Positions 24,224-40,970 of a stretch of 64,000 nucleotides of DNA are shown here, in pieces. How positions within the stretch are numbered: position 1 is the first letter of the stretch; each line of letters opens with the position of its first letter. The translations under genes and the position numbers were made by a program. A model generated the notes under the pieces. It worked only from the letters and a program-made list of their open reading frames with translations. It made no database searches and was not told where the DNA came from. This DNA comes from an uncultured Litoreibacter sp. (GTDB lineage: Bacteria; Pseudomonadota; Alphaproteobacteria; Rhodobacterales; Rhodobacteraceae): contig CANNGL010000001.1 in the NCBI GenBank assembly GCA_947504205.1, positions 806,001 through 870,000 of the forward strand, read 5' to 3'.

Positions 24224-24278
24224 TATTTTTCCTATATGATATTGTTATTATTGTATTTATTGCTGCAATGGCTTCTAT

Positions 24279-24300
24279 TTGTTACCAGATTTGTTACCAA
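24279..24300. repeat. Left arm-type integrase site candidates
   Basis: Two direct copies of TTGTTACCA(G/A) with a 12-bp period (24279-24288 and 24291-24300), 55 bp inside the left end. The same paired motif occurs twice near the right end. It is followed by two tandem copies of CGCTGATTGC at 24306-24325. Confidence 0.6.
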
Positions 24301-24356
24301 CTGGTCGCTGATTGCCGCTGATTGCACGTGAGGCGTTTTGACTCACCCTACCCGCC

Positions 24357-25031
24357 TCAAATATCGAAGCCATCAGGTTCAATCAGGTCTGGGCCATCGT
24401 CCTTGATCCCGAATTTGGCCACCCGCCGGGCCTTGAATTTGCCGGTCCAATCGCTTCCGTAATTCTCTATCACTTCGCCATCATCATCAGCGTGGTCCAT
24501 CCAGCGCGCCATGCGCTCAGATGTCAGGATGACCGGCATCCGGGAATGAAGGTTGGCAATTTCGGGTTCCGCCGCCCGTGTGATGATGGTGCAAGTCTCA
24601 GTCCCATCGGCCAACGTGGAATGCAGACCTGCGAAGAAGAACACCGGGGCGTTTTGTTCCAGTGATATGAAGTGCGGCTGCTTCTTTCCCTTTTCCCCGG
24701 TCCATTCATAGTAACCGCTCGCCGGGATCAGACAGCGATCTGACTTCCACGCGGTCCTGAAAGTTGGCTTTTCAAATGCGGTTTCAATTCGGGCGTTGAA
24801 GGTCGTTTGCTTCCATTCCTTCACATCAGTGCCCTTCCACCAATGCGGGATGAACCACCAGCGCGCCGTTGAAGCCACCAATTCACCGTCCCGATTGATC
24901 ACCGCATTTACGGATTGTGTTGGCTTGATGTTGTAGCTGACCGAGTTGGCGCTATCAGATGGCAGGATAATGGACAGGGCTTCGTGGTATTCAGCCCACG
25001 ACGCTTCACTCAAAACAAAACGGCCACACAT
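24357..25031 (-). CDS. SRAP (HMCES/YedK-type) protein
   Basis: A 224-residue SOS-response-associated peptidase family protein. All the key features are visible: catalytic Cys2 (MCGRF), SYNIKPTQ, the IPHWWKG segment, NARIETAFEKPTFR, CLIPASGYYEW with the active Glu, and HSRMP with the conserved His. These proteins form a thiazolidine crosslink with abasic sites in ssDNA. Location at the edge of a replicating/integrating element suggests protection of its ssDNA or counter-defence, which is inference. It is transcribed toward attL and is the left-most gene of the element. Confidence 0.92.
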   Translation of the reverse strand: MCGRFVLSEASWAEYHEALSIILPSDSANSVSYNIKPTQSVNAVINRDGELVASTARWWFIPHWWKGTDVKEWKQTTFNARIETAFEKPTFRTAWKSDRCLIPASGYYEWTGEKGKKQPHFISLEQNAPVFFFAGLHSTLADGTETCTIITRAAEPEIANLHSRMPVILTSERMARWMDHADDDGEVIENYGSDWTGKFKARRVAKFGIKDDGPDLIEPDGFDI

Positions 25032-25160
25032 CTAACCTACCACCAAACTATTGCGCACTGAATTTCCTTTGTGGTTATCCTGTGCACCTTGGCCGAAGTG
25101 CTGGGACTAGATCAACCGTCAGCCCAACTAGGGCATCCGCACCATTTAGAGGTTCAACAA

Positions 25161-26009
25161 ATGAAGATGGCCATTTTAGCCGCCGCCTTGTGCGTCCTTA
25201 CAATCCCAGTGATGGCTGATGAACTGAAAGACCAACGTGACGACGCATGGTCCGCTTGTGACGCCGCAGCCCCTTCTGTGAACGCGCCTGTGGATGAACG
25301 GATCAAAGGGGCCGAATGCTACCTGTCTGCGACTGGTGACTACATCACGGCCTTGAAAAAGGTTAAGCGGGAAGCAGAAGCGGCCACAGCGAAGGCCGCT
25401 TTAGGAGACGCAAAAGACAAGTGGGATTATGCAAAACGGCTCTGCGGAGATCAGCGAGGCACCAGCACCTACATGCCATGCTTACAGTCCGCACGAGATG
25501 ATTTTGAAGACAAGTTCCCTGACTTCACCCCGCCAGCGGAAGCCAAGCCGAAGCCTACAAAATCTGCGTTCCGCACCCGAAAGAGCCGGTCGCTTGTCGA
25601 TGACAGCCCCAGCGTTTTCATTACCGCGTATTCAAATGAAAACCTGCCTATGGGTCGCTACAAAGATGCTGGACGCTTGGAATTGATGATGCGGTGTTTG
25701 GAAAACACTACTTCTTTTATCTTGTCACACGGCGATGCGTTCTTTGCCGATACCGCCGGTTTTGGAAAAGTTCGGTTTCGGCTTGATGACGACAGAGCCT
25801 TTTCGCGAAACATGGTTGAACGCTCCGACAATCAAGGGTTGGGTCTTTGGTCCGGGCGGCGATCAATCCCGATTATTCGGGATATGTTTGGCCATGATCG
25901 ACTTCTGGTAGAAATTCAGCCGTACAACGAAAGCCCGCGAACTTTCACATTTAATATTTCCAATCTGGAAGATGCTGTAAGACCGCTGCGTGAGGCCTGC
26001 AACTGGTGA
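25161..26009 (+). CDS. Secreted protein with VasI-like C-terminal domain
   Basis: A 282-residue protein with a signal peptide (MKMAILAAALCVLTIPVMA, cleavage before DEL), a helical Cys-containing region (about residues 20-110; ACDAA, AECYL, RLCGD, MPCLQ), a basic proline-rich linker and a beta-rich C-terminal half: VFITAYSNENLPMG, LMMRCLENTTSFIL, LLVEIQPYNESPRTFTFNIS, then PLREACNW. The C-terminal pattern resembles proteins labelled VasI in type VI secretion clusters. No such cluster is near, so the role here is unknown. ATG at 25161 has GAGG eight bases upstream and begins the signal peptide. It is opposite in strand to most of the element, as cargo genes often are. Confidence 0.65.
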   Translation: MKMAILAAALCVLTIPVMADELKDQRDDAWSACDAAAPSVNAPVDERIKGAECYLSATGDYITALKKVKREAEAATAKAALGDAKDKWDYAKRLCGDQRGTSTYMPCLQSARDDFEDKFPDFTPPAEAKPKPTKSAFRTRKSRSLVDDSPSVFITAYSNENLPMGRYKDAGRLELMMRCLENTTSFILSHGDAFFADTAGFGKVRFRLDDDRAFSRNMVERSDNQGLGLWSGRRSIPIIRDMFGHDRLLVEIQPYNESPRTFTFNISNLEDAVRPLREACNW

Positions 26010-26287
26010 CCTTCACTCGCCGCCCCACGGTCATTGGTGGCCAGACCCGCCCAGATGACTGGGCCATCTATTACAACGGTGGACGGGCTATTGGACGGAT
26101 CAACCACTATAACAACGGCCCAAATTCCTACTGGCAGTGGAACATTTGGACTAATCCCGGCGCATCTGGCACCGCCGACAGCCTAGAGGGCGCACAGGAC
26201 GCCCTGAAAGCGGCTGTAATGGCTCTACCCCCGGAAGATCGGTGCAGGCACGTCACGCCGGGAATGAGGTTGCGCAGGGAAGCATAG
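26006..26287 (+). CDS. Small hypothetical protein coupled to the secreted protein
   Basis: A 93-residue protein starting with GTG inside the upstream stop (GTGA overlap), so it is translationally coupled. Aromatic-rich core: DDWAIYYNGGRAIGRINHY, YWQWNIWTNPG, then an amphipathic helix (DSLEGAQDALKAAVMAL). I do not recognise a characterised family. Confidence 0.6.
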   Translation: MTFTRRPTVIGGQTRPDDWAIYYNGGRAIGRINHYNNGPNSYWQWNIWTNPGASGTADSLEGAQDALKAAVMALPPEDRCRHVTPGMRLRREA

Positions 26288-26620
26288 CCAGCGACCCGGC
26301 CCCACAACCACAAGGACTGGCAATAGCGGGACCGGGCGCGGCTTCTACACGGTGGCTGACGGCACCAGTGGAAGGACTGAATTGGGATTTGGGGCCAGTT
26401 CGGTTTCTTCGGCCCGTGGGCGATCAATCCGAACTGGACGAACAGGAAAACCTGCTCGACCGAAATAACATAAATGCACAGATAAATCTACAAAGACTGC
26501 TTTCTGTGCGATTTTAGAGAATTCTTCAATTTCCCAAAAAATTCGCGTTGCTAGGGGGTGTCGCTAGTCGCAAAGGGGCACCCCAGATTTTTGACCCCCC
26601 CCTACCCAGCATTCAAACTA
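26288..26620. other. 333-bp region without a confident gene
   Basis: One plus-strand frame (26242-26517) overlaps the preceding gene and lacks a ribosome-binding site; I do not accept it. The second half is AT-richer and contains GGGGTG...CACCCC (26554-26583), an imperfect hairpin downstream of the Doc gene on the minus strand that could end its transcript. Confidence 0.5.
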
Positions 26621-27007
26621 TCAGATTGGTCCTTCTGTTCTGTCTTTCAGCCACTGTTGAAGTTCTACCTGCGTCAAGTCGCCAGTCACCACATCCACCA
26701 TTAGATCATCCACGCGATCAAAAATGTATGTGTGCAGGATATATCTGCTGTTTGAATAAAGAAGATCGGTGCAAAGCCATGCGGTGCGCTTGTTACCATC
26801 ATTGAACCCATGGGCCGAAGCGATGCCGTGTAACAGTGCTGCACCCTTGGCGTAGATCATGCGGTGATAGCCGTGATACGGCCTACCAAGCGCGCCCAGT
26901 AGTGCATCAAGGTTGCTGATGCCATCCAGACCACCGAAGGCTTCAAGGGACTGTGCATGGGCTTCCAGCGCGTCACCCAGCTTTACCTTGTAATGTGACC
27001 TACCGAT
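26621..27007 (-). CDS. Doc/Fic-family toxin with no standard start codon
   Basis: The frame contains the Doc motif HGFNDGNKRTAW (canonical H-x-F-x-[DN]-x-N-K-R-[ST]-A). Upstream of the first ATG (26860) it runs on with clear Doc N-terminal sequence: ALEAHAQSLEAFGGLDGI and ALGRPYHGYHR. Including this the protein has about 128 residues, normal for Doc, which phosphorylates EF-Tu. No ATG, GTG or TTG precedes this region in frame: the stop at 27014 is followed only by ATC (27007) or GTA (26986) as near-start codons. Initiation at ATC, a +1 shift from the antitoxin frame, or a mutated start are alternatives. I list it from the ATC; the 5' end is uncertain. Confidence 0.7.
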   Translation of the reverse strand: MGRSHYKVKLGDALEAHAQSLEAFGGLDGISNLDALLGALGRPYHGYHRMIYAKGAALLHGIASAHGFNDGNKRTAWLCTDLLYSNSRYILHTYIFDRVDDLMVDVVTGDLTQVELQQWLKDRTEGPI

Positions 27008-27313: not shown

Positions 27314-27523
27314 TCACCCTTCTTCTTGCCGCTTGACCCAAGCCAGCAACGTGGACCTGCGCGCGCAGATAGTGGCCCCTTCCATGTAGTGTGGCGGAAG
27401 CTGTCCCTTGGCCCGCAGCGCGTAGACACGTTTGGGGGTCGTGTTCAGAAAGCCCGCAATGGCTTTGGCACCACGCAGGACATCCAGATCACTGGGAAGC
27501 GTATGAAGTTTGGGCGGGATCAT
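27314..27523 (-). CDS. Small helix-turn-helix protein
   Basis: A 69-residue protein: DVLRGAKAIAGFLNTTPKRVYALRAKGQLPPHYMEGATICARRSTLLAWVKR. This is the MerR/excisionase-like winged-helix layout (AIAGFLN... helix-turn-helix, then a wing and TLLAWV helix). It is coupled to the upstream gene by a TAATG overlap at 27523. It could be a directionality factor or a regulator. Confidence 0.7.
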   Translation of the reverse strand: MIPPKLHTLPSDLDVLRGAKAIAGFLNTTPKRVYALRAKGQLPPHYMEGATICARRSTLLAWVKRQEEG

Positions 27524-28041
27524 TACCGCGTCACTGGGAACGGTGGCAGCACTTCACGCGCGGCGTCCACATAGGCGGTTAGAGGCATCAGGCTGATTGA
27601 CTTGTTGGTCTGGATGAAGCCCGTCTGGGGGCGAGTTTCACCAAAGTGCATCAGGGTGCGTCCGTGCGACTGCATAATGGCCCATGGGCTGTTGTCCAGC
27701 GTCATGATCAGGTGCATGTCCAATCCGGTGTCTGGGTTTTCCATCAGACCTTTGATTGAGAATGTCAGCGCATCCGCCAATGTATAGGCGTCAGGGATAT
27801 CCCCCGGCATGATATTGAACCGGCGAAGATCAGCCAAAGCCGTGATCCGATCCGTGTTGGTTGACCCAAGACCCAAGACCAAAAGAGCCAAACGGTGGGG
27901 GAATGCCGCTGGAATGGACCGGCCCACCGACGCAGGCAAAGCCCCATCTGAAATCAGACGTTTCCGCACGGTCTGCAACGGTCTGTCCGGGACGCCATAG
28001 GCGGTGGCAAGCAGTGTTGTGGCTTGGGTTAAATTCAGCAT
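27523..28041 (-). CDS. Hypothetical element protein
   Basis: A 172-residue protein of unknown function. N-terminal segment (LTQATTLLATAYGVPDRPLQTVRKRLISDG) looks like a DNA-binding helical region; the C-terminal part is mixed alpha/beta. A single inverted copy of the element's TTGTTACCAA motif lies 44 bp upstream of its start (28085-28094), possibly an operator. Confidence 0.6.
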   Translation of the reverse strand: MLNLTQATTLLATAYGVPDRPLQTVRKRLISDGALPASVGRSIPAAFPHRLALLVLGLGSTNTDRITALADLRRFNIMPGDIPDAYTLADALTFSIKGLMENPDTGLDMHLIMTLDNSPWAIMQSHGRTLMHFGETRPQTGFIQTNKSISLMPLTAYVDAAREVLPPFPVTR

Positions 28042-28120: not shown

Positions 28121-31100
28121 TTAGATTAAGTAGCCGGGGTCATCCTCGTTTACCTCTTTCACCAGCTTCACCACCTCCCTCGCGTGCTGGGCAAATCTTG
28201 GGGCCAACCTGCTTTCCACCTGCTCTATTGTAAGCCCTGAGCCATCCACATTCAGCGATTGGGTCACATTCACATTCAGGACACGGTTATCCTGCCCGCC
28301 AGCCCCTATGCTGGCCAATCTGTCCAAGTTGGGGACATTGATGGTCACTGGGATGCTGCGCCCATCAGGAAGCGGCACAAAGGCTTCTGGCCCGGCACCC
28401 TCACCGAACAAAGCCAGCTGGGGTGAGTTTGCAACGCCACCGCGCGCATAGCTGCGAAGCGGCAGCGGACCAGCACTGGTCATGATGCCGCCTTTCTCAA
28501 AGCCAAACAGTCCCCCAACAATGCTTCCGATGGGACCAAGAAAGCTTCCAAGCAAACCACCTAGTATACCGCCGCCCTTTTTACCGCCGCCGCCCCCGCC
28601 GTTGCCGCTGCCTGAGAGGGCGCTTGCGATCCGGTCAATGGCATTCGACGCGGCAAGCTCCAGCAGGCGAAGTCCGATCTTCTTCAATACGTCATCAAAG
28701 CTGTCACCCGCTTGAATGGCCCCAAGGATGTCTTCCTTAATACCGTCAAAGAATGTGGCCTTGGCTTGGATTTCCAAGTCCTGCATTGCTGTGGTCAGTT
28801 CCGCGATCCGCTCTTTTTCTTTGGGATAGGTCTCAATCAGTTTTTCGCGAAGCTGACGGATATTCTCCAGCGGTGTCAGGCGTTGGGTTTCCGACTGGGT
28901 GGCGCGTTTAATCGCATCATCCACATTCTTCAAAAGCTTCTGTTCTTCGGACAGTTCGCGGATACGGGCACCACCGCCGCCACGGGATCGACCACCACCG
29001 CCGCCACGTCTGGTGGCCACAACAGGTTGCGGTGTTGGGATCAACTGTCCGCCACCCGGTCCTGTTACTGGGCTGCTAAAGACCGCTTCTTCACCTGCAA
29101 AGCGGCGTGACAACAGGAAAGCTTGGGTGCGTTCCTTCGACAGTGCCACAGCCTGCGCCTGAGCCTGTGCAAAGGCCCTTGCAGCGGCGTCAGCGTCTGC
29201 GATGACATCCCCTAGCTCAGCGCGCAGAGCGGCCATGCTGACAGCGTTCAGGTCTAGTCCAGCGGCTTCCGCGTCCAACAGTTTCTGTTCAACGGCACGG
29301 GCGCGCTCTGCAATTTCCCCATCAGGATCAAAAGCAACACCCGCCAGTTCTGACGCCAGTGATCCAGCGACAACGGCCATCCCAGAAAGCAGTTGCTGTG
29401 AACCGCTTAAGATGGGGTTCATGCGTTCAAGTTCACTGTTGACCTGTGACAGCCTGATTTGAAGCTGGTTCAGGCGTTCGAGGTCTTCCCCACTCTGCGC
29501 ATTGGCTATCTGGCGCTCCAACACTGCCCGTTCTGCGGTCAGGTCTGCGATCTTCTGCATCCGCTGCGAAATCAAATCCGAGTTGGCCAAGACCGCTGAT
29601 TGAGCCTGTGAGATTTGCTGCGTGGCTATCAGGTTGCGCTCCACATGTTGGGTAACCACATCCGTGGCGTCTGCGATCTGTCCTTCCGTGGCGATCATGT
29701 CCCGGCGCAGTTGGGCGTATTGGTCCGCCTTCTGGATCAGGTCTGTGAAGCCTTCCTGCAACTCCAGCAATCCACGGTCGCCAGCCAGATCGCGGGCGTT
29801 CAGCGCCTCGCTGGCAGCGCGCACCGCTTCTTCATTTGAAAGACCACGGACGGATGATTGATCAAAGCCGGGTGTGTTGAACAAGACCCGATTGGCTTGG
29901 CGGCGCTGTGCGGCAAACGCGTCTTCGTTGTCCAAAGCCGCGATGTCCAGCTTGTTCTTCAAGACCTTGTTCTGTTCACCCAAGAGCTTACGCAGATCAG
30001 CAATTTCACCCTCCACGGCACCTTTGGCCTTCTGGGCCGCTAGGATGGCCGCTTCGCCTCGATTGTCCGTCGCAGTTTTCACATCATCTTCTGCGGATTT
30101 CAGGCGGGTCAGCGTTTCCGTAAGTCGCTCTTGCGTGCCTTTCACGTCATCAGCGCTGCGCGATGCTTCTGAAAGGGACGCTTCAAAGTCACGCGCTGCT
30201 TCGCTGGCATCAATCAGACTGCTTGCGATGGAACTGATGATGGTTGCTGCAGTCAGCAAAAAACCAATCGGACCACCCAAGAAGCTGACAACACCGTTGA
30301 AGGCTTTTCCGGCAATCACACCAGCGCGATAAGAACGGCTTACATTGTCCACCGCCTTGGCGTGGGTTTGGGTTGCCAAGGTCACACTACGCTCTGCGGC
30401 GGCAAGCGCAGCTGCGGCACGGATTTGGCGACGGTCAGCCCTTTCACGCGTGCTGCGTGCCCGGTTCAACTCATATGCGGCGCGTTGCTTTTGGTTGGCT
30501 ATGTCCAGATCAAGCCGGGCCTGAACCAAAGCAGCTTTGGCTGTGGCAATCCCACGGCGCGTTGCAGCTTCGTTTGCCACAGCTGCTTTCTGACTAGCTC
30601 TCAGTGCGTTTGTGACGCCTTGAATGCCACGGGTGCCTGCAACAGTGATGGCGGCTGCGCCCAGCACCTTGAAGGATGCAGCCAGCGTACGTGCCACTGC
30701 TTCGTTTTCGGACAAGAGCGATGCAAAGCCGTTGAGCGTCTGCGCGATATTGCTGGTGGCCCCAAGTTCACGATCAAATTCGCCAACAAAGACCGTCAAT
30801 GCGGATCGCACATTGGTGGTGGCTTCGGCCACAGTGATATCCAATTGCTTGAGGGCTTCTTGTGAATACTTGGAAAGACCATCAATCGCCCGAAGCACAA
30901 GATCGGCTGTCAGTTTCCCTTCTGACCCAGCTTTCTTCAATTCGCCCACGGTGATCCCTGCCTGATCAGCAATGGCTTTCAACAATTCCACAGGAGCGGC
31001 CTCGCGCAATGACTTGAGTTCATCCCCCGCCAAGAACCCACTTTGAAGGGCTTGGGCCAGCTGAGTACTGACAGACGCGGCTTCTGCGGAAGAACTGCCA

Positions 31101-31528
31101 CCCACACGGGCCAAACGCTGGATTGTGGCTGCCCGTTCTAAGTTCACATTGGCCCCATCATCTGCCCTGATTTTGTTCAGTCGCAAAAAAGCACTGGAAA
31201 GTGCTTCCAATGGTGCACGGGCTTCAATCGCCGTGGACAGAAGTTCCTTCTTAAATTCGGACGCGGTAACGCCTGCGGCTTTCAGCGTGTTGTCAACGCG
31301 TGTCGATGCCTCGCTAAACCGTCCAAATTCCCGGATGGCCAGTGCTGCGGAAAACCCACCGAATGCAGCTGCCGCTGACGCGCGCAATTTCGCAACCTGA
31401 CTTTGCACTTTGCGGAAGTTCTCATTGGTTGCACGCTCTAGCCTAGATGTGGATGCGGACATCTTGTTCATTTCCTGAATGAACCCCTGTCCGTTGGCGC
31501 GGAAAATGGCTGTGGTGGAACGTGTCAT
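28121..31528 (-). CDS. Phage tail tape-measure protein
   Basis: An 1135-residue protein and the largest gene in the element. The N-terminal part (to about residue 230) matches the tape-measure domain (FRKVQSQVAKLRASAAAAFGGFSAAL, ELLKAIADQAGITVGELKK). Long helical stretches follow, with a hydrophobic segment near residue 415 (FLGGPIGFLLTAATIISSIA), and a Gly-rich C-terminus (ILGGLLGSFLGPIGSIVGGLFGFEKGG, ARGGVANSPQLALFGEGAGPEAFVPL) typical of tape-measure C-termini. It would set tail length in a siphovirus-like particle, but no tail tube, chaperone or baseplate genes accompany it. Transcription from the capsid genes is likely reduced by a terminator just upstream. Confidence 0.88.
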   Translation of the reverse strand: MTRSTTAIFRANGQGFIQEMNKMSASTSRLERATNENFRKVQSQVAKLRASAAAAFGGFSAALAIREFGRFSEASTRVDNTLKAAGVTASEFKKELLSTAIEARAPLEALSSAFLRLNKIRADDGANVNLERAATIQRLARVGGSSSAEAASVSTQLAQALQSGFLAGDELKSLREAAPVELLKAIADQAGITVGELKKAGSEGKLTADLVLRAIDGLSKYSQEALKQLDITVAEATTNVRSALTVFVGEFDRELGATSNIAQTLNGFASLLSENEAVARTLAASFKVLGAAAITVAGTRGIQGVTNALRASQKAAVANEAATRRGIATAKAALVQARLDLDIANQKQRAAYELNRARSTRERADRRQIRAAAALAAAERSVTLATQTHAKAVDNVSRSYRAGVIAGKAFNGVVSFLGGPIGFLLTAATIISSIASSLIDASEAARDFEASLSEASRSADDVKGTQERLTETLTRLKSAEDDVKTATDNRGEAAILAAQKAKGAVEGEIADLRKLLGEQNKVLKNKLDIAALDNEDAFAAQRRQANRVLFNTPGFDQSSVRGLSNEEAVRAASEALNARDLAGDRGLLELQEGFTDLIQKADQYAQLRRDMIATEGQIADATDVVTQHVERNLIATQQISQAQSAVLANSDLISQRMQKIADLTAERAVLERQIANAQSGEDLERLNQLQIRLSQVNSELERMNPILSGSQQLLSGMAVVAGSLASELAGVAFDPDGEIAERARAVEQKLLDAEAAGLDLNAVSMAALRAELGDVIADADAAARAFAQAQAQAVALSKERTQAFLLSRRFAGEEAVFSSPVTGPGGGQLIPTPQPVVATRRGGGGGRSRGGGGARIRELSEEQKLLKNVDDAIKRATQSETQRLTPLENIRQLREKLIETYPKEKERIAELTTAMQDLEIQAKATFFDGIKEDILGAIQAGDSFDDVLKKIGLRLLELAASNAIDRIASALSGSGNGGGGGGKKGGGILGGLLGSFLGPIGSIVGGLFGFEKGGIMTSAGPLPLRSYARGGVANSPQLALFGEGAGPEAFVPLPDGRSIPVTINVPNLDRLASIGAGGQDNRVLNVNVTQSLNVDGSGLTIEQVESRLAPRFAQHAREVVKLVKEVNEDDPGYLI

Positions 31529-31598: not shown

Positions 31599-33185
31599 TT
31601 AGGCCACGGTCAGCGTGCGGGCGGCTTCGCCCTGAACCACGTCACCACCAACCCGCTGGCGGGCGTGGAAGCGCACCATGGACTTGGTGGCCAAGCTGTA
31701 AGGATCACGCAGGACCGCGATGTCCAGACGGGACACAATGCGGTAGGCGCGCGCAAAGTCACCAAACAGAACAGCCTTCATCCCAGTGATGGGATCGGGC
31801 ATGTCAGCGGCTTCAAAGACCGGACGCCCAAGGATGGTGGCAGGCTGACCGTCTGCGATGCTGTCACGCCAGATGTAGTCACCAGACACGGTTTTCAGCT
31901 TGCGGACTTCGGCCAGCGTGTTGCTGTTCATCATCCAAGCGCCGTTGGCCCGGTAAGACGCTTTCAGCTTGTAGAAAGTGGTGATCAGGTCATCCCCGTC
32001 AATCACACCAGCGGCGGCGGTGTTGCCAGTTTGGATGTCAGCGCTGTCCAAGATGCCTTTGGGCTTGCCCACGCCATCGCCCCGGATGAATGCGTCACTT
32101 TCGATTTCTCCGAAACTTTCGGCAAAATCCGCAGTCAGTTCAGCCTGCATGTCAAAGGCGCTGTCTTCCAAGTTCTGGTTGGAAATGGCGGTGAAGACAC
32201 CCAGTTCATGAACCGGAATTTTGATCTGGCCATAGGTGGGTTGATCTTCGGGGCGGTCAGCCAGTTCAGCGGTCCAGCCGCCTGCCAGCTTGGTAAGGCG
32301 TTTTGGCGTAATCAGTTCATCACGACCTGTGTTAGTGGTGCGCGCCACTTGGCGCATCGGACTGTGTTCCGTGATTTCGCGGATCAGTTCAGCGCGGTAG
32401 TCTTCTGGAACCAGCGCGCCGCCTTGCGCGTCGGTGCCTGAGTTCAAAGCCTTCACTTCTTCCGGCGACATGGCGGACTGACCATGGCGAGCGAACGCCT
32501 CAAAAGCCTTCATTTCCAAGGATGGTTCATCATCCTTCTTCGCCTGTGCGGGCACGGCGGTGGCTTTGGCTTCCAGATCGGCAATGCGGTCCAGTGCTTT
32601 TTTCAGTTCGGCGTCCAGTTCGGACGCGGTATCCAGTGGCATGTCATTGCCCCCTTCTTCGTCTGCGGCCTTCTGGGCCTTGGTTTCAGTGCCGCCATCG
32701 GCACCCTTCACATCCGTGACCGTCGCGGCGTCATTGGCCGGGAACGTGACAACAGAAATTTCAAAAAGTTCCAGTTCGGTGATCAGGCGTCCGCCACCGG
32801 GGCGCGGTTCTGCGGACACGGTGCGGTAGCCGATAGACAGCGCGTCCAGCACACCGTCCTTCATCAAGGCGTGGACGTTCTGGGCGTCTTCATTGCCCAT
32901 GGTCAGCTTGCCTTCCACGCGTAGACCTTCGGCGCTGTCTTTCAGCTTCACCCACTTCCCGATGGGCTTGGACTGGTCGTGGTAGGCCAGCATTTTGACC
33001 TTCCGGCCTGATGTCTTGATGTCTTCCAGTGTCTTGGTGAAAGCACCCGGCGCGATCACGTCACCAACCCGGTCAGGATCAGCGCCATAGGTCGCGGCCA
33101 TGCCCTTGATCACCCCGGCTTCCGGGTTCTGGAACTTCACTTCCAGCGGGAAGCGCTCCAATTCTTCCAGCGTGTCTTTAGGCAT
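31599..33185 (-). CDS. Fused HK97 prohead protease-major capsid protein
   Basis: A 528-residue protein. Residues 1 to about 165 are an HK97-type prohead protease (MAATYGADPDRVGDVIAPGAF, MLAYHDQSKPIGKW with the catalytic His, DALSIGYRTV with the Ser, ELELFEISVVTFPAN). A coiled segment (ELDAELKKALDRIADLEAKA, about 190-215) corresponds to the scaffold-like delta region. From about residue 240 comes an HK97-fold major capsid protein (GGALVPEDYRAELI, SPMRQVARTTNT, FIRGDGVGKPKGIL, VLFGDFARAYRIVSR). In most phages these are two genes. The ATG lies in the portal gene's 3' end (8-bp overlap). Confidence 0.9.
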   Translation of the reverse strand: MPKDTLEELERFPLEVKFQNPEAGVIKGMAATYGADPDRVGDVIAPGAFTKTLEDIKTSGRKVKMLAYHDQSKPIGKWVKLKDSAEGLRVEGKLTMGNEDAQNVHALMKDGVLDALSIGYRTVSAEPRPGGGRLITELELFEISVVTFPANDAATVTDVKGADGGTETKAQKAADEEGGNDMPLDTASELDAELKKALDRIADLEAKATAVPAQAKKDDEPSLEMKAFEAFARHGQSAMSPEEVKALNSGTDAQGGALVPEDYRAELIREITEHSPMRQVARTTNTGRDELITPKRLTKLAGGWTAELADRPEDQPTYGQIKIPVHELGVFTAISNQNLEDSAFDMQAELTADFAESFGEIESDAFIRGDGVGKPKGILDSADIQTGNTAAAGVIDGDDLITTFYKLKASYRANGAWMMNSNTLAEVRKLKTVSGDYIWRDSIADGQPATILGRPVFEAADMPDPITGMKAVLFGDFARAYRIVSRLDIAVLRDPYSLATKSMVRFHARQRVGGDVVQGEAARTLTVA

Positions 33186-34341
33186 CGGCAGCCCCTTCCA
33201 TGTTCATTGGCCGCAGGAAGTCATCGCCGCCCGCGTAGGGGCTGCGGTTTTCCATTGCGCGGACTTCGTTTGGTGAAAGAATTCCGGTCGTGACTGCCTT
33301 GGCGAACGCTTCCATGCGCGCGGCCAGATCGGCCTTGGCGATGTCATCAGTCAGGAATTCGGCGTATGCGGACCCGTCTTCCGGCATCAGCTTCAAGTTG
33401 ATTTCTTGTTCCCACGCTTTCAGCCAAGGCATCATGGTGAATTGCAGGAACTGGCGTCCAAGCTGTTCAGCGTTCTGGTGGGTGATCCGTTCCAGTTCTT
33501 GCAGCATGTGAAGCGGCACCCGGAACGCGCGGGCGATTTCAGCGATCTGCAACCGGCGCATTTCAAGGAACTGCATGTCAGCGTTGTGGATGCCCAAGGC
33601 GGTATATTTGGCTTCACCGTCCAGCACGGCGGTGCCTTTGCTTTCCCCCAGTGCCCGGAACTGTTTCACGGCCCGGTCAATGGCTTCATCCGTCATCGAA
33701 TTGGTGAAGGTCAGGATGCCCGCAGGACGCTGACCGGCGGACAGGCTGTTTGCCAGTTCCGCTTCCTGTTGCAGTGCCAGGGCGATGGCTTCCTTGATCT
33801 GGGTCACCACAGACAAGCCCAGAAGCCCCTTGATGTGCAGGATGTCGCGGTGCGTGTAGACCCTGTGCCCGCCTTCACTAAGGGTGACCCGGTAGGTGGG
33901 TTCCCCAGTGATGCGGTCTTCCTCCACGCTGACAGATCGGGCCGGAAGTTGGCGCAGATAGCGCGGGGCCTTCTGACCATCGCGCAGGATCAAAGCATAG
34001 GCGTTGCCGTGCAAAAGCGCGTCAGATTGCATAGACACCCGGAAGTCAAAGGCGGTGGTCCAGTCGTTTGGGTTCTTGGTGAACATGCGATGTAACGCAG
34101 ACACGCGGTCCCGCTCCACAGACCCATCAGCCTTGCGGATGTAGGCGTGCAGCGGAAGCTGACCCATGGTTTCGGTGATGATCCGGGTGCAGGCAAAGAC
34201 AGTGGGCTGTTTCAGCGCCAGTTCCGGAGTGATCACCAACCCGGCCTTGGTGGGCTGCGATGGCCACAGCATGTCCCAAACGCCACGGCTGGCGTCCTTC
34301 TGTTCAATGACTGGGGTTGCGCTACGGGTGAAAGGCCACAT
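33178..34341 (-). CDS. HK97-family phage portal protein
   Basis: A 387-residue portal protein: ALKQPTVFACTRIITETMGQLPL, HRMFTKNPNDWTTAFDFRVSMQSDALLHGNAYALILRD, the helix AIALALQQEAELANSLSAGQRPAGIL and FRVPLHMLQELERITHQNAEQLGRQFLQFTMMPWLK. It forms the ring at the capsid vertex through which DNA is packaged. A packaging terminase is normally encoded just upstream and is absent here. The start overlaps the upstream stop by one base (TGATG). Confidence 0.93.
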   Translation of the reverse strand: MWPFTRSATPVIEQKDASRGVWDMLWPSQPTKAGLVITPELALKQPTVFACTRIITETMGQLPLHAYIRKADGSVERDRVSALHRMFTKNPNDWTTAFDFRVSMQSDALLHGNAYALILRDGQKAPRYLRQLPARSVSVEEDRITGEPTYRVTLSEGGHRVYTHRDILHIKGLLGLSVVTQIKEAIALALQQEAELANSLSAGQRPAGILTFTNSMTDEAIDRAVKQFRALGESKGTAVLDGEAKYTALGIHNADMQFLEMRRLQIAEIARAFRVPLHMLQELERITHQNAEQLGRQFLQFTMMPWLKAWEQEINLKLMPEDGSAYAEFLTDDIAKADLAARMEAFAKAVTTGILSPNEVRAMENRSPYAGGDDFLRPMNMEGAADA

Positions 34342-34655
34342 CAGATGACACCCCCGCCCAGCGCGTCCAGCACCACGTTGCCAGCGGCGTCCACAAGGAA
34401 CAGTTCGCTGGATGTGACCTGAACAGCCTGAATTGTCACATTGCGCCCCACAGAGCGCACCCAGACCGGATCAGTACCGTTGTAGGCAAAGGACTTCACT
34501 TGGCCCTGTGCGGCCAGCGTGAAGCTGTCATATTCGTTTGTCGGGGGTGTTGGCCCCATGAAGAAGCGCAGATGTCCCAAGGCCCAGAAAACCGTGTGAG
34601 GGCCTACGCCAACTTGGGTCCATTCATCGGCTGTTAGGGGCACGGTCTGGATCAT
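34341..34655 (-). CDS. Small element protein, paralogue of the upstream gene
   Basis: A 104-residue protein from the ATG at 34655, which overlaps the upstream stop (ATGA). It shares a pattern with the preceding protein: W-T-x-[VL]-G-V-G-P-x-T-V, then a G-x-[LM]-x-F step, and V-W-x-R-x-V-x-R. Beta-rich, no Cys. Position before the portal suggests a particle-associated or decoration role, but I do not recognise the family. Confidence 0.6.
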   Translation of the reverse strand: MIQTVPLTADEWTQVGVGPHTVFWALGHLRFFMGPTPPTNEYDSFTLAAQGQVKSFAYNGTDPVWVRSVGRNVTIQAVQVTSSELFLVDAAGNVVLDALGGGVI

Positions 34656-35119
34656 GACGCGGCCTGCCAATACTGCGCCTGACCGCCCCGTGGACCGATG
34701 GCGACATGGACACCGCGCAACACGTCCGAGGGATCGGCCAGAACAACTGCCAGACTGCCAGACACCACGGTGGTGGGATCGGGCAATTCAGCATAAAGGG
34801 AATAGACTTCAACCGGCGGCTGGTTGGCTTGGCTGTTGGCCAAAAGCCCGGTGACCTGCATGACATCGGTGTCACGTTCCACCGCACGCGCCCACACCTT
34901 TTCAGTCTTTGCAAAGGTCACCAGACGGGTGAAGCCCTGCGCTTGGTGCAGATACCCGCTGCGCTCGACGGCTGGGGCTATATCGCCCACGTCAAACCAC
35001 ATGCGCCCGTGGTTCAGACCCACGGTCATGGGGCCTACACCTAGGTCAGTCCATGCGGCTTGTGTGACTGTGATTTTCTGGGTGGACACAGGGAACGCCA
35101 AGTTGATTTCACTTGGCAA
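34652..35119 (-). CDS. Small element protein, first of a paralogous pair
   Basis: A 155-residue protein. Its first 90 residues (ITVTQAAWTDLGVGPMTVGL, VWARAVERDTDVMQVTG) parallel the downstream protein, and a further beta-rich segment follows (VYSLYAELPDPTTVVSGSLAVVLADP). Only a TTG at 35119 is available as start, and it lacks a clear Shine-Dalgarno; the region just upstream is a rearrangement junction (tandem repeats, inverted ParB remnant), so the 5' end may have been altered. Confidence 0.55.
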   Translation of the reverse strand: MPSEINLAFPVSTQKITVTQAAWTDLGVGPMTVGLNHGRMWFDVGDIAPAVERSGYLHQAQGFTRLVTFAKTEKVWARAVERDTDVMQVTGLLANSQANQPPVEVYSLYAELPDPTTVVSGSLAVVLADPSDVLRGVHVAIGPRGGQAQYWQAAS

Positions 35120-35166
35120 CCCATTGAGGGCAAATTTGCGGACCCGTCAAAAGCCCGATTACCTAA

Positions 35167-35213
35167 ATTCCCCTGTCCTTCCCTGTCCTTCCCTAAATTT
35201 CCCTAAATTTCCC
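35167..35213. repeat. Tandem 10-bp repeats
   Basis: CCCTGTCCTT occurs twice in tandem (35171-35190), then CCCTAAATTT twice (35191-35210), flanked by partial copies. The 10-bp phase equals one helical turn. It lies between the paralogous genes and the ParB remnant. Confidence 0.7.
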
Positions 35214-35231
35214 GGCGATTTGTAACATTCC

Positions 35232-35721: not shown

Positions 35722-36021
35722 TTACTTCACAATCTGCGGCTTCGGGAATGCCCGTTTCCGTCGGTCAGCTTCTTCTTGTTCGACAAGCGGCTTTTCCAAC
35801 CACAGAAGCTGGTTCAACAGGTCAGTCTCTTGCACAGGCGAAGTAGCGGTATCAGCCAGCGCTTGGCAAATGTCTGTGGCCACTTCGATACCAGCCAAGA
35901 TGGTTTCCCGTGATGCGAATGGGTGCCGCTTGCTGATAAGGTCCACGACGCTTCCGCTTGGCCTCTCAAGCGACAAACCAAAAGCTGTCTCTGCTATTTC
36001 GTCTTCAAGGGCGTTAATCAC
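35722..36021 (-). CDS. Small hypothetical element protein
   Basis: A 99-residue, mainly helical protein (MINALEDEIAETAFGLSLERPSG, ETILAGIEVATDICQAL, LLNQLLWLEKPLVEQEEADRRKRAF). No family recognised. Its start overlaps the upstream gene by four bases, so the two are co-translated. It ends just at the junction with the inverted ParB remnant. Confidence 0.6.
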   Translation of the reverse strand: MINALEDEIAETAFGLSLERPSGSVVDLISKRHPFASRETILAGIEVATDICQALADTATSPVQETDLLNQLLWLEKPLVEQEEADRRKRAFPKPQIVK

Positions 36022-36302
36022 GACAGTTTCCTTCCCCTTTGTTCACGCATCCCATGCGCTTGTTCGCGGACCACACCCTGCGCCCCGATCAGGCGGCGGG
36101 TCAGCCCTTTGATGTGGTCTTCACGCTTCCGGGTCTTCGCGTTCCCAGCCATCGCATGAAGTTCCGTTTCTGCAATTTCCAACCCGGCCAGAAGCTGCGG
36201 TGACTGGGCCTGCGGAAACTTGGTTTGCAGGTATTCCACCAGCCCCGCGCCGTTGGCATTTTCAACCTTGTCCAGCGCTACAAGGGCGACATCATATTCC
36301 AT
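36018..36302 (-). CDS. Small hypothetical element protein
   Basis: A 94-residue helical protein with a basic C-terminus (KTRKREDHIKGLTRRLIGAQGVVREQAHGMREQRG). ATG at 36302 is preceded by AAGGAAATCGG. No family recognised. The pattern AGLEIAETELHAMAG resembles AGIEVATDICQALAD of the next protein, so the two may be distant paralogues. Confidence 0.6.
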   Translation of the reverse strand: MEYDVALVALDKVENANGAGLVEYLQTKFPQAQSPQLLAGLEIAETELHAMAGNAKTRKREDHIKGLTRRLIGAQGVVREQAHGMREQRGRKLS

Positions 36303-37462: not shown

Positions 37463-37538
37463 CAGTCTTTCCTTTCGGTTGGTTGTGAAGTGCGCACCGC
37501 CAGTTGGTCCGTTTATCATCTGGCGGCGCTTTTTTGGC

Positions 37539-37880
37539 TTAGGCGGTGCCCTTCATCGGCTCTGTGGCCATGCGTTCAAACATGACTTTCACCGTGTCGC
37601 CCAGTTGGGCGTAGGATGCCGCGAAGGTCAGGGTTTGGTTGCCACTCGGGATGTCCACAGGCGCGAAGGTCAGTTTCACGTTGGCTGGCGCGCCCAATTC
37701 CACATCGGGGAACTGAACACCCTTGGCTTCCGTTTTATCGGCCAGCACGTTGACAGACACCTTATGGTAGACAGCGCCATCACTGCCAAGGCCCCGCACG
37801 ACTTCCGCACGCAAGTCCCCGGCAAAGTGAGGCGCAAACAGGTCCAGCACTGCAATCTGGTTTTTCGGTTCAAAGTTCAT
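37539..37880 (-). CDS. Hypothetical element protein
   Basis: A 113-residue protein: MNFEPKNQIAVLDLFAPHFAGDLRAEVVRGLG, then beta-rich VYHKVSVNVLADKTEAKGVQFPDVELG and TLTFAASYAQLGDTVKVMFERMA. No family recognised. ATG at 37880 has GAAAGGAAAG upstream and overlaps the stop of the 54-residue gene before it (ATGA). Confidence 0.6.
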   Translation of the reverse strand: MNFEPKNQIAVLDLFAPHFAGDLRAEVVRGLGSDGAVYHKVSVNVLADKTEAKGVQFPDVELGAPANVKLTFAPVDIPSGNQTLTFAASYAQLGDTVKVMFERMATEPMKGTA

Positions 37881-38041
37881 TGGTCTTTCCTTTCGGTTGG
37901 TTTTGGGACCCCACATAGGCGTCCCGGTTGGTGGTTAGGTTGTGGTGGTTTCGTCGCGCGCTTGGTCCCATCGGGCAGCGTCACGATTTCGCCGGTGCGT
38001 TCCATTTCGGCAATGAGGCGGTCCAGTGGGTCGGGCTTCAT
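37877..38041 (-). CDS. 54-residue protein in the coupled chain
   Basis: MKPDPLDRLIAEMERTGEIV then TLPDGTKRATKPPQ and a basic proline-rich tail. It starts and ends in ATGA overlaps with its neighbours (38038-38041 and 37877-37880), which is the main support for it being real. No family recognised. Confidence 0.55.
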   Translation of the reverse strand: MKPDPLDRLIAEMERTGEIVTLPDGTKRATKPPQPNHQPGRLCGVPKPTERKDQ

Positions 38042-38319
38042 TGGCGCACCCCAAAATGGACCAAAATCAGTTTTTGATTGATTTGGGATTGGATTTTCTG
38101 AGGAAAGCGGCGCGTTTTCTTCACCCCTGCCCGCACAAAGCCCGCAGGGGTATATGGCTTAGATGTATATGGTAAGCGATTATCGCAGGCACTTTTACCC
38201 ATTTTGGGGTCCAAATCGTACGCATTTTCGCATGTTGAGCCTAACCACCAGCGATTTTCGCGGGGGGTAAACAGCGACTTTCGCGGGGGTATGCAGCGAT
38301 TTTCGGGGGGCGTTTTCAT
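38038..38319 (-). CDS. 93-residue protein overlapping the iteron-like array
   Basis: It starts in the ATGA that ends the Rep-like gene and ends in the ATGA that starts the next gene; an uninterrupted 93-codon frame linked at both ends argues that it is translated. The composition is odd (many Pro, Arg, Lys), partly because its first 24 codons read through the repeats at 38250-38310. No family recognised. Confidence 0.45.
   Translation of the reverse strand: MKTPPENRCIPPRKSLFTPRENRWWLGSTCENAYDLDPKMGKSACDNRLPYTSKPYTPAGFVRAGVKKTRRFPQKIQSQINQKLILVHFGVRQ
38176..38310. repeat. Iteron-like array, candidate replication origin
   Basis: Three direct copies of a 20-22-bp unit with core AGCGA(T/C)TTTCG(C)GGGGG start at 38250, 38273 and 38295. 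The 23- and 22-bp spacing is not a multiple of three. A perfect palindrome with the same core, GCGAT-T-ATCGC, lies at 38176-38186. CCCCAAAATGG occurs inverted at 38049-38059 and 38199-38209. The array sits right after the Rep-like gene. Confidence 0.6.
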
Positions 38320-38690: not shown

Positions 38691-38895
38691 CAGTTTGACC
38701 CAAAACAGTTGCCGCCGTATGGTCGGTAACAATCTCACCAGACGCCAAAATGTGACCTTGGGCGGATGGCATCTTGGGAACTGGCAGCGCTTTACAATAG
38801 CTGGTTTCGACACCCCACAGGCCCCTGATTGCAGCGATGCGGTCAGGGGCTTTTTCTTGTGGTCCGGGCGTGTTTGAATTAATATTCACTGGCAT
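38680..38895 (-). CDS. Possible 71-residue protein upstream of the Rep-like gene
   Basis: An open frame starting MPVNINSNTPGPQEKAPDRIAAIRGLWG. AAGGA lies only two bases from the ATG, which is too close for a good site. Its stop overlaps the Rep-like start region (38680-38690), compatible with coupling. Against it: a strong plus-strand terminator-like hairpin lies within it. No family recognised. Confidence 0.3.
   Translation of the reverse strand: MPVNINSNTPGPQEKAPDRIAAIRGLWGVETSYCKALPVPKMPSAQGHILASGEIVTDHTAATVLGQTDAR
38821..38857 (+). terminator. Plus-strand rho-independent terminator opposite the Rep leader
   Basis: GCCCCTGA/TCAGGGGC is a perfect 8-bp stem with an inner GCA-GCGA-TGC hairpin, followed by TTTTTCTT on the plus strand. 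No plus-strand gene precedes it, so it may end an antisense transcript. TACAAT occurs upstream at 38792-38797, without a clear -35. Confidence 0.6.
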
Positions 38896-38949
38896 ATTCC
38901 TTGCACGGGATGCAAAGGCGCACGGCGGGAACCGCGCGCAGAATTAAGG

Positions 38950-38978
38950 CCCCAGCCAGCAATGGCCGGGGTCTTTCT
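38950..38978. terminator. Hairpin after the AlpA-like gene
   Basis: CCCCAGCC and GGCCGGGG form an 8-bp stem with one mismatch, just after the stop of the AlpA-like gene on the minus strand. The better U-tract (TCTTTCTT) is on the plus strand, as for the hairpin at 38821. Confidence 0.45.
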
Positions 38979-39232
38979 TATTGGGTGGCGGCGCGCTGTT
39001 CCTTGGGAACGTAGTTCCAGACCACTTCGCCGCGCGGCAGCGCAGCCATGGCCGCTTCAAATTCAGCGCGCTGGAAGCGGTAGTTGCCAGCCAGAAGGAA
39101 CGGCGTAGGCCACATGCCCTGCTTACACTGCTTCATGAACGTGTTCCGCGACACGCCAAGAATGTCACAGCAGTCCTTCACGGACAGCAATTGCTTGCAG
39201 GTGATTTCGGGTGTTTCTTTTGGGTCAGCCAT
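38978..39232 (-). CDS. AlpA/excisionase-like helix-turn-helix protein
   Basis: An 84-residue protein: LLSVKDCCDILGVSRNTFMKQCKQGMWPTPFLLAGNYRFQRAEFEAAMAAL. This is the MerR-like fold of AlpA/excisionase proteins that lie next to P4-type integrases and control integration direction and element genes. The ATG at 39232 has GAGGGG six bases upstream. It is transcribed in the same direction as the integrase, 187 bp downstream of it. Confidence 0.8.
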   Translation of the reverse strand: MADPKETPEITCKQLLSVKDCCDILGVSRNTFMKQCKQGMWPTPFLLAGNYRFQRAEFEAAMAALPRGEVVWNYVPKEQRAATQ

Positions 39233-39419
39233 TTGATCCCCTCTCATTGGGTTGCGTTATGGCTGATCTGTTATGCAGACAAATGATGGTTAAGCAACAA
39301 GCCCAAAATGGCCACAGAAGTGTCTTTAGATGTCAGGAAGACCGTCTGTTTGTCAGGGGTTATCAGGGGGATCGAAAATTAGTTCGGTCCACCCAGTAAT
39401 CGTGATAAATATTTCAAAA

Positions 39420-40754
39420 TTAGCCGCGTGTCTTGAACCGCTGGGCAAAAGAAACCACCCCTGTGCCGTCCGGGATGATTCGTGTTGCTTCCGGGTCCTT
39501 ACCTGTCACCCAGTCCGCCCATTGGGCCAAGATGATGCGTCGTTTGGCCAAGAACAGCCGGGACTTGGGCTTCTTCCTGTAGGCATCATTGACCTTGTTC
39601 CAGAACTTGTGGTGCAGACACCATTCCACTTCATTATCCAAGCCTTCCAGCTTGTCATCTGCCCATTCACGGAACGTAGAACGGAAGCCGTGATTAACTG
39701 GATTGCGCCCGCATATGGCTTTGACTTTCATATGATCAAGACGCTGGTTCAGAGCCTGACTGCTCAAGACAAACCCACGCCCTTTTGGGTTGGTCATAAC
39801 ATGGTCCACGTTGCCATTGATGTCATGCAAGCGGTGCAGCACGTCCATAGCAATGTCTGTCAATGGAATGGTGAAGTCCCCCCGGTCTTTAACCTTTAGA
39901 TGGGCCGCTGGGATGCACCATTCCTGTGCCTCCCAATCGAATTCATCCCAAGTCGCCTTCTGCAATGAACCTACCCGCGTAAGGGTCAGGCTTTGTAGTT
40001 GCAGGATTAGGTCGGAGACTTGCTCAGGCTTGTATTGAGGCCAGACACTGGCAATGTCCTGATAACTCATGGCCGGGTTACCCTTCATCGCATCATCCTT
40101 CTGGGGAACAGCGTCGTTGGGCAGGCCATTGTCCAGAAGCCACTTACGCCGGTCACGCCACATCTGGGCGTCAATCCCGTGAGGGTTGTCGGGTTCCAGC
40201 ATCCGTGCATGGTCCATGCACTGTGCGAACCGCTCAATTGTCTTGATTGCCATGTTACCTTCGCCGGGACACTTTCGATAATAGTCCAGAAACACCTCCC
40301 CAAGCTGCGCCCAAGTCAGTTCCCAGACCAGCCAGTCACCCCAGTCAGGAACAATCAGCCTGTCCAAAGAAGCCCGCCAAGCCTTGGCGTCTTTGCTTTC
40401 AATGTTGGAATATTTCAGCCTGACCTTGGCGTCCAAAATCGCTTTGAAGGTGTAGTCATGCTGAGTTGTTTTCTGGGGCGGGGAAATGGCGTGTTGAAGA
40501 GCAGTCTTGCCGTCTGTGCCGTCCAATATGTTCTGAAAAGTCTGGGTGGCGATGTCTTGCGCCCGATCCCAGCCATACACTGATAGCGCACCAATAGTCA
40601 GAAGATAAGGCTGGCCGTCCACGGACTTTTTGAACAACCATGATTTACTGGAACCCTTCGCCGTGCTGCGAATTCTAAGCACCAGCCCGTCATTCCCGGC
40701 ATAGTCGCCGGGTTTGTTCCCTTGAAGCACCCTGTGCGTGATTTTTTTTGCCAT
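39420..40754 (-). CDS. Tyrosine recombinase/integrase
   Basis: A 444-residue P4-type integrase. N-terminal DUF4102-like arm-binding region (GLVLRIRSTAKGSSKSWLFKKSVDGQPYLLTIG), a SAM-like core-binding domain and the catalytic domain with R in LTRVGSLQKATW, H-x-x-R in NHGFRSTFREWA, and the later LHHKFWNKVNDAYRKK supplying the second His and the nucleophilic Tyr. It catalyses insertion at the tRNA-Gly 3' end. It is the right-most gene and reads inward from attR. Paired TTGTTACCAA sites lie immediately upstream of its start. Confidence 0.93.
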   Translation of the reverse strand: MAKKITHRVLQGNKPGDYAGNDGLVLRIRSTAKGSSKSWLFKKSVDGQPYLLTIGALSVYGWDRAQDIATQTFQNILDGTDGKTALQHAISPPQKTTQHDYTFKAILDAKVRLKYSNIESKDAKAWRASLDRLIVPDWGDWLVWELTWAQLGEVFLDYYRKCPGEGNMAIKTIERFAQCMDHARMLEPDNPHGIDAQMWRDRRKWLLDNGLPNDAVPQKDDAMKGNPAMSYQDIASVWPQYKPEQVSDLILQLQSLTLTRVGSLQKATWDEFDWEAQEWCIPAAHLKVKDRGDFTIPLTDIAMDVLHRLHDINGNVDHVMTNPKGRGFVLSSQALNQRLDHMKVKAICGRNPVNHGFRSTFREWADDKLEGLDNEVEWCLHHKFWNKVNDAYRKKPKSRLFLAKRRIILAQWADWVTGKDPEATRIIPDGTGVVSFAQRFKTRG

Positions 40755-40769
40755 TTTGAGGTCCGTTTC

Positions 40770-40822
40770 ATGTTACCAAATTTGTTACCAAGTCGGCCAT
40801 TTGTTACCAAATTTGTTACCAA
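40770..40822. repeat. Right arm-type integrase site candidates
   Basis: Two pairs of TTGTTACCAA-like decamers (40770-40779 with 40782-40791, and 40801-40810 with 40813-40822), each with a 12-bp period like the left-end pair. They also overlap the expected integrase promoter, so integrase could self-repress. Confidence 0.65.
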
Positions 40823-40936
40823 CCTTGCGCTGACTGTAATTGATGGCCATTAATTGATCGTGATGCAAGTATCCTCAATAAAATAAGGCCTTGAACAGAT
40901 TTCAGATCACATCAAAGACGTTGAATTATGACCAAT

Positions 40937-40970
40937 TTACCCGCTCCAAAATCACGCGTTACCCGCTCCA
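40937..40970 (+). repeat. attR with two tandem att-like cores
   Basis: TTACCCGCTCCA at 40937-40948 and CGTTACCCGCTCCA at 40957-40970. The outer copy matches the tRNA 3' end over 14 bp, the inner over 12 bp; they are 22 bp apart in register. Confidence 0.8.

Follow-up and report, generated by a model that had tools for sequence, protein, structure and literature searches.

The window analysed here is a stretch of 64,000 nucleotides from a 3.79-Mb Litoreibacter genome (G000:C1:806001-870000), and our subject is a 16,747-bp integrated element at its positions 24224-40970, together with the relatives of that element. The element follows directly on the 3' end of a tRNA-Gly(ccc) gene and is bounded by 14-bp direct repeats (Table 1). 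In three genomes of the same genus (G403, G410 and G400) this site is empty, and tRNA-Gly(ccc) is followed within about 50 bp by a homologue of the right-flank gene, which in the window begins at 41008. The right-flank search covered 21 genomes of the genus, of which five matched (G000 itself, G403, G410, G400 and G412) and 16 gave no match; in G412 the tRNA-Gly lies about 1.3 kb off. The repeats and the three empty sites bear out the insertion of 16.7 kb at a tRNA-Gly 3' end that a first-pass annotation of the window had proposed.

Read from the integrase on the minus strand, the element encodes an AlpA-like helix-turn-helix (HTH) protein, a Rep-like protein with iteron-like repeats, small proteins, a ParB-like protein and a pair of 94- and 99-amino-acid proteins. 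These are followed by b1, b2, the portal, a fused protease-capsid protein, a tape measure protein (TMP), a 172-amino-acid protein and a 69-amino-acid HTH protein, after which cargo genes lie on both strands. Pfam and PHROG matches support the integrase, AlpA-like, Rep-like, portal, fused protease-capsid and lone tape measure genes named in the first-pass annotation. Its iteron-like array is also real, albeit small, with only three copies of 20 nt. What it had called a ParB remnant needs correction, as the full ParB-like frame is intact and the fragment is a separate inverted copy of the HTH segment.

Tandem copies of the ParB-like HTH were found in L055, one of the related elements described below. 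An open frame on its plus strand (L055:6079-6801) holds five of them, each of 46-50 amino acids with a variable middle; L055 also has a further fragment (7315-7809, minus strand) and inverted pieces of another ParB type. The tandem copies and the window fragment may be silent ParB-specificity cassettes, a multi-HTH protein or debris.

Structure prediction was applied to two core proteins. The AlphaFold model of the 172-amino-acid protein (predicted local distance difference test, pLDDT, 79) had no PDB or BFVD match at E ≤ 0.001, and the protein is a TerS candidate in a formal sense only. The b1 model (pLDDT 68) gave weak cupin or jelly-roll matches, none at E ≤ 0.001; b1 is a possible decoration or fibre protein.

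Table 1. Features of the integrated element and its attachment site, in window coordinates
Feature	Position	Strand	Evidence or remark
tRNA-Gly(ccc), attachment (att) site	24150..24223	+	ARAGORN; empty sites in sister genomes
14-bp att repeat, tRNA side	24210..24223	+	direct repeat
TTTGTTACCA-type repeats near tRNA end	24277..24299		candidate integrase arm sites (putative function)
SRAP (SOS response associated peptidase), cargo	24357..25031	-	PF02586 3e-55
VasI-like protein, cargo	25071..26009	+	phrog_1848, PF11319 5e-14; homologue in L056
phrog_12188 protein, cargo	26006..26287	+	PHROG; homologues in L055, L057
Fic/Doc-like C-terminal fragment	26621..26860	-	PF02661 5e-8; phrog_577 positions 52-123/128
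69-aa HTH protein, core in 5/5 elements	27314..27523	-	profile A6; phrog_18541 4e-12
172-aa protein, core in 5/5 elements	27523..28041	-	profile A5; no family or fold match
TMP, 1135 aa, in 2/5 elements	28121..31528	-	PF20155 4e-32, phrog_339
Fused prohead protease-major capsid protein, 528 aa, core	31599..33185	-	Peptidase_S78 PF04586 + Phage_capsid PF05065
HK97-type portal, core	33178..34341	-	PF04860 5e-90
b2, 109 aa, core	34341..34670	-	profile A8; not in wider relatives
b1, 155 aa, beta-rich, core	34652..35119	-	profile A7; start near 35089 suggested by alignment
Conserved cis-element: six tandem 10-bp repeats, then CTTTTGAC	35146..35220	-	
Inverted partial copy of ParB HTH segment	35235..35402	+	
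99-aa protein	35722..36021	-	homologue in L055
94-aa protein	36018..36302	-	74% identical in L055
ParB-like protein, intact, 349 aa	36470..37519	-	PF02195 weak 0.0044; PHROG ParB 1e-12
125-aa protein	37539..37916	-	no family
Three 20-nt iteron-like repeats	38249..38313		spacing 22-23 bp
Rep-like protein, 165 aa	38316..38813	-	HTH_36/DnaD-type (replication-initiation) N-terminal domain only; homologues in L058, L059, L066
AlpA-like HTH_17 regulator/excisionase	38978..39247	-	
Tyrosine integrase	39420..40754	-	PF00589; 91% identical in L055
Two 21-bp TGTTACCAAATTTGTTACCAA repeats	40771..40822		candidate integrase arm sites (putative function)
14-bp att repeat, integrase side	40957..40970	+	direct repeat

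Four close relatives make the window element part of a five-member family. In a capsid search of 394 genomes of the bacterial family (393 genera), 312 genomes matched at E ≤ 1e-40. Among the listed matches G294 held the single close relative, at 69% identity; the others listed were at most 43% identical, and many of these look gene transfer agent (GTA)-like, as their match is confined to the capsid part. When a two-row capsid alignment was scanned against 84,980 species, with one genome for each, 13 loci emerged, four of them close; the scan relied on two peptide patterns, and members that lack these would escape it. The close relatives are L055 (Litoreibacter, capsid 75% identical), L056 (Tateyamaria, 76%), L057 (on the same contig as the G294 match, 67%) and L058 (Tateyamaria, 67%). 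All four keep the order b1, b2, portal, capsid, a variable slot, 172-amino-acid protein and 69-amino-acid HTH protein, and all are flanked by exact tRNA-end repeats of 13-15 bp, at tRNA-Gly in L055 and at tRNA-Ser in L056, L057 and L058. Their sizes are about 16.4, 16.0, 15.3 and 15.4 kb (L055 to L058), so that the five span 15.3-16.7 kb. The search of related genomes that the first-pass annotation had recommended therefore recovered the gene set in four further Rhodobacterales elements, at tRNA-Gly or tRNA-Ser.

The slot between the capsid and the 172-amino-acid gene holds a TMP in the window element and in L057 (40-44% identical), unrelated small genes in L055, and a NACHT-type ATPase with a 543-amino-acid partner in L056; in L058 it is empty. 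Cargo of the sister elements (L056:12212-16493; L057:16110-17234; L055:15564-16651; L058:15195-16631) comprises the NACHT ATPase and its partner, a Schlafen/AlbA protein and an HTH-PIN pair, and also includes a protein with I-TevI-type DNA-binding domains and a weak GIY-YIG match.

A profile of the 172-amino-acid protein matched only G000 and G294 in the 394 family genomes, the identical pair in 385 genomes of the class, and G000 and the L055 genome in the 21 genomes of the genus; no match was found in plasmids, phages or the IMG/VR scan. Neither this protein nor b1 and b2 had a match in 18 wider relatives (described below), nor in the 87 newly fetched IMG/VR contigs, among which 43 match TerL. 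The 69-amino-acid HTH protein matched in one of the 18 and in three of the 87. Its homologues lie in phage-like contigs at L125:2690-2872, L156:762-920, L120:55-234 and L077:8780-8953, the last upstream of a portal. It had no match in the phage collection and matched 12 plasmid records; of three plasmid contexts read, two are prophage-like gene sets with a terminase and one is not.

The absence of terminase, tail tube, baseplate and lysis genes, as stated in the first-pass annotation, extends to the whole family. Twenty proteins of the region gave no match above noise to terminase, connector, tube, baseplate or lysis families in Pfam and PHROGs, and the AlpA-like HTH protein reached a noise-level 0.07 against a TerS family. 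Six-frame searches of the five whole host genomes with phrog_2, PF03354 and PF03237 found no terminase inside any element, and all matches lay outside. Reference proteins of two capsid-bearing plasmids, L079 and L078, gave no match for TerL, TerS, HNH, connector, gp10, DUF3168 or head closure in any of the five, although very divergent connector forms could escape such searches; the references for connector, gp10, DUF3168 and head closure came from L079. The protease alone matched in this comparison, of which the portal and capsid rows were not part. Nineteen selected frames of the four close relatives likewise had no terminase or tail family in Pfam. The profile search for terminase and head-completion families proposed in the first-pass annotation thus found none, and the TMP of two elements is the only tail gene found in the five.

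The core frames are open in all five members and under purifying selection. Nei-Gojobori ratios of nonsynonymous to synonymous substitution (dN/dS) were 0.08-0.29 for portal and capsid, 0.08-0.47 for b1, b2 and the 172- and 69-amino-acid proteins, and 0.06 for the integrase (window versus L055); these are rough figures, as dS is mostly above 1 and close to saturation. The TMP value, below 0.21, is a weak one, with dS saturated (proportion of synonymous differences, pS, 0.75). The first-pass annotation had read the intact portal and capsid frames as pointing to retained function, and had named a lack of purifying selection on the capsid as evidence to the contrary; the open frames and ratios well under 1 agree with retained function. 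In a tree of capsid domains with 31 rows, including GTA, prophage, plasmid and viral-contig capsids, the five elements grouped together in a single clade (100/100), separate from the capsids of GTAs and prophages. The prophage of the L056 host gave no row in this tree.

Each of the five elements has an array of about six tandem decamers directly upstream of b1, followed by CTTTTGAC; this is the sole conserved noncoding site detected across them. The array is the best 10-bp-periodic window in every element, with 35, 39, 32, 28 and 28 of 50 matches. Maxima in 20 shuffles of the window element were 23-28, best windows at other loci scored 23-32, and the second-best windows of L057 and L058 score 27. 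Because these controls score alike, the array in L057 and L058 is recognised by common position and sequence, not by score. Judged by eye, TTGAC fits a -35 box, with a poor -10 box. The site might serve for packaging, or it might be a late promoter with its activator array. The 13-mers common to four elements lie almost all in portal, capsid and b2. Two wider relatives, L059 and L066, also have 10-bp-periodic stretches directly upstream of the portal.

IMG/VR yielded 94 viral contigs with a capsid relative, of which 80 were kept (best identity 48%), and 10 portal relatives of at most 35% identity. Two viral scans with two-row alignments gave two distant portal loci and nothing, respectively. 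In the phage collections, identity stayed below 60% for capsid and portal in every record, and on this ground we reject a deletion derivative of a collected phage. Stretches of the TMP matched at 60-80% in 8 of 359 phage records; none covered 80% of the protein, and the top-ranked row covered 28% of it.

The nearest relatives beyond the clade carry a packaging gene. We compared 18 wider relatives with capsids about 35-44% identical (L059-L067, L046, L051, L052, L074, L075, L077, G252 and the plasmids L078 and L079). L076 (G309) was dropped, having matched in the protease only and being a GTA cluster, and the other capsid matches of the family search (L019-L040, save those refetched) were left out of this terminase comparison. 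TerL is present in all 18. Among the 16 that are not plasmids, HNH and TerL matched in all, TerS in 15, gp10 in 14 and a connector in 13. A TMP-sized frame (632-895 amino acids) follows TerL in 15 of the 18 (L059, L061-L067, L046, L051, L052, L074, L075, L077 and G252); the three without it are L060, where TerL is cut short, and the two plasmids. All 14 frames that were scanned match PHROG tape-measure families, mostly phrog_10574; the L052 frame was left out, and the TerL of L052 is interrupted by a transposase-type frame. The G252 frame lies at L048:6448-8805, and L052 and L077 were read with L199 and L045.

Frame lists place the TMP as the last long operon gene in L059, L065 and L066, and by eye several wider relatives have it as their last long gene with no recognisable tail-tip genes. 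In L061 and L062, inspection by eye revealed additional tail-like frames, and these two may be fuller phages. L059, L066 and L077 also match a major tail protein, and a small 'GTA family' protein of L079 (8929-9327) matches a tail-tube family; therefore the wider group is not uniformly tail-less. Its members may be capsid-forming phage-inducible chromosomal islands (cf-PICIs) or small phages. L059 and L066 have a Rep-like gene in common with the window element. The window TMP belongs to a different family (phrog_339, PF20155) from the TMPs of the wider relatives; both its position directly behind the head genes and the fact that it is conserved in L057 speak for its being used. The five elements may have lost their packaging genes from a TerL-bearing ancestor akin to the wider relatives.

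The two plasmids are observations in their own right. L079 (NZ_CP157016.1, 17,494 bp, Paracoccus) and L078 (CP099479.1, 16,883 bp, Roseomonas) are circular. Both encode a portal, a capsid and a TerL, and neither annotation lists a tail fibre, tip or TMP gene. PMC13230959 describes a plasmid form and reports similar elements in no genus outside Vibrio. L078 and L079 look like satellite-plasmids outside that genus.

Candidate helpers were sought among the hosts. By phrog_2, PF03354 and PF03237, three families only, G000 has no resident helper: its sole terminase lies in a GTA-like cluster with terminase, portal, protease and capsid frames (L006), and therefore a helper would have to come from outside. 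The L056 host has a complete-looking siphoprophage near tRNA-Gly(ccc) (L102/L103, G413:C2:160000-199999) with TerL (PF03354), portal, a TMP (PF20155) and a J-type central fibre (phrog_31, 3e-96). The TMP of this prophage shares 34% identity with the window TMP over residues 9-427, and we regard the prophage as a candidate helper type. The phage TMPs nearest to that of the window lie in prophage-like sets of G105 and G221, with J confirmed in G105; tube-sized frames in G105 and in the L056-host prophage had no PHROG match. Judging by these sequences, lambda/HK97-like siphophages would be the helper class.

Comparison with described systems (satellite families are listed in PMC11389934) sets the five elements apart. 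They resemble cf-PICIs, which are tRNA/att-bounded or episomal, in that the window element is att-bounded and has an integrase, AlpA and Rep, its own portal, head maturation protease and HK97-fold major capsid protein, and no full tail. However, cf-PICIs encode connectors, HNH, TerS and TerL beside capsid, protease and portal and need tails only (PMC10690885; TG54, PMC13230959), and none of these connector and packaging genes was found in the five, which add b1, b2, the 172-amino-acid protein, the 69-amino-acid HTH protein and, in two, a TMP. The reading as a satellite with its own capsid, raised in the first-pass annotation, is thus supported, but the element is not a cf-PICI as defined. The Streptomyces satellites MulchRoom and MiniFlayer also encode portal and capsid, MulchRoom with a helper-type tail, but they have small and large terminase, scaffold and adaptor (PMC10690885; compared by description). 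In P4 and classical PICIs the helper terminase packages the DNA (PMC10690885), as we suggest here; unlike the window element with its own portal and capsid, they remodel helper capsids. The alphaproteobacterial capsid-TerL elements above are nearest in capsid and portal, share a Rep-like gene in L059 and L066 and mostly have a TMP, but differ in carrying TerL, mostly HNH, connectors and TerS, and in some a tail-tube-type protein. Rhodobacterales GTAs share an HK97-type portal, protease and capsid; they branch separately in the capsid tree and are not integrated tRNA-bounded elements, and the window element has neither a TerL of its own nor a GTA-branch capsid. Searches on terminase-less capsid-coding satellites and on satellite TMPs returned no description of either in the portions of the literature they covered.

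The window element is small and conserved, with a partial virion gene set, mobility genes and signs of selection, as is general for satellites. We consider it likely to be an intact, integrated, terminase-less capsid-coding phage satellite. The five elements then represent a terminase-less, connector-less satellite lineage that probably borrows the terminase, neck and tail of a helper siphophage; a borrowed terminase would be needed because the clade shows no motor and no neck of its own. Infection or induction of the helper would switch the element on through the AlpA-like and 69-amino-acid HTH regulators, a switch that would include the decamers and the promoter-like site upstream of the b1-b2-portal-capsid operon. 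The integrase would excise the element at tRNA-Gly, and Rep and the iterons would copy it. Its portal and protease-capsid protein would build shells sized for about 16 kb, which the helper terminase would fill and the helper neck and tail complete. Where a TMP is present, as in two of the elements, it would set the length of the borrowed tail or adapt that tail. The uniform element size would fit the headful limits of a small shell; scaled from HK97, with T=7 and about 40 kb, the capacity of a T=4 shell would be about 17 kb.

The first-pass annotation had offered both a Rhodobacterales satellite with its own capsid and a prophage decayed by deletion. On the latter reading a normal siphophage would have lost its terminase, tail and lysis genes and would now be inert. 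A single orphan TMP, the Fic/Doc fragment and the inverted ParB fragment are what decay might leave behind. The TMP no longer serves as a sign of decay, with a homologue at the same place in L057 and TMP-sized frames behind TerL in most of the wider relatives. We reject decay, now very improbable, because four relatives show the same absences and because dN/dS lies well under 1; those absences recur in five separate elements at two tRNA kinds, with open frames, intact att repeats and similar sizes. Nor is a simple deletion derivative indicated, as the close relatives (capsid 67-76% identical) that might have kept a terminase or tail set all lack one. The common core, the selection and the uniform size of the five argue for the satellite named above. 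Defence-type cargo in the relatives (NACHT, Schlafen/AlbA, PIN) counts towards it too, and also towards an anti-phage element, in which portal, capsid and TMP would poison phage assembly in a dominant-negative manner and transfer would be secondary. That the structural proteins come without the genes to complete a particle suits such an element, and PMC10884400 and PMC11364771 present interference with TMP and tail assembly as a known defence route. We nevertheless think it unlikely: the integrase, AlpA, Rep, iterons, att sites and uniform 15.3-16.7 kb fit mobilization, and the protease-capsid fusion retains a complete maturation system.

A satellite of the resident GTA, using GTA terminase and tail instead of those of a phage, seems the least probable of these alternatives. 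It would explain why the sole terminase found in G000 lies in a GTA cluster, and each of the four other hosts has a terminase frame of similar length (475-486 amino acids), possibly a GTA gene. Yet such co-occurrence says little, as GTA clusters are very common in Rhodobacteraceae. The portals of the elements are only 23-26% identical to the GTA portal, and the GTA stretch contains no match to the window TMP, whose nearest phage counterparts lie in prophages with a J-type fibre.

Several points weigh against a helper-dependent satellite. We infer every mobilization step, the identity of the helper and the docking of its terminase on the satellite portal from gene content, and a foreign terminase would have to work on this portal. 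No 13-mer that might mark a packaging site is common to all five elements, and the IMG/VR contigs yielded no member of the clade and so far no sign of packaged copies. The TMP is present in only two of the five, and the dN/dS figures are rough, as noted.

According to published descriptions, capsid-forming satellites make and fill their own heads and need a helper for tails only. The clade keeps shell and portal, with no motor or neck found, and would hence have to combine its portal with the terminase of another virus, so that the compatibility of motor and portal across viruses could be tested here. The recurrent TMP gene in capsid-coding elements suggests that satellites may control tail length too. 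We tentatively raise a new division of labour, possible if short of probable, in which the satellite gives the shell, the portal vertex and sometimes a TMP, and the terminase, neck and tail of a helper, or even of the resident GTA, are redirected onto this foreign portal. If true, terminase-portal and portal-neck compatibility would be loose enough for parasitism, and tail length would be set by a satellite that does not itself encode the tail.

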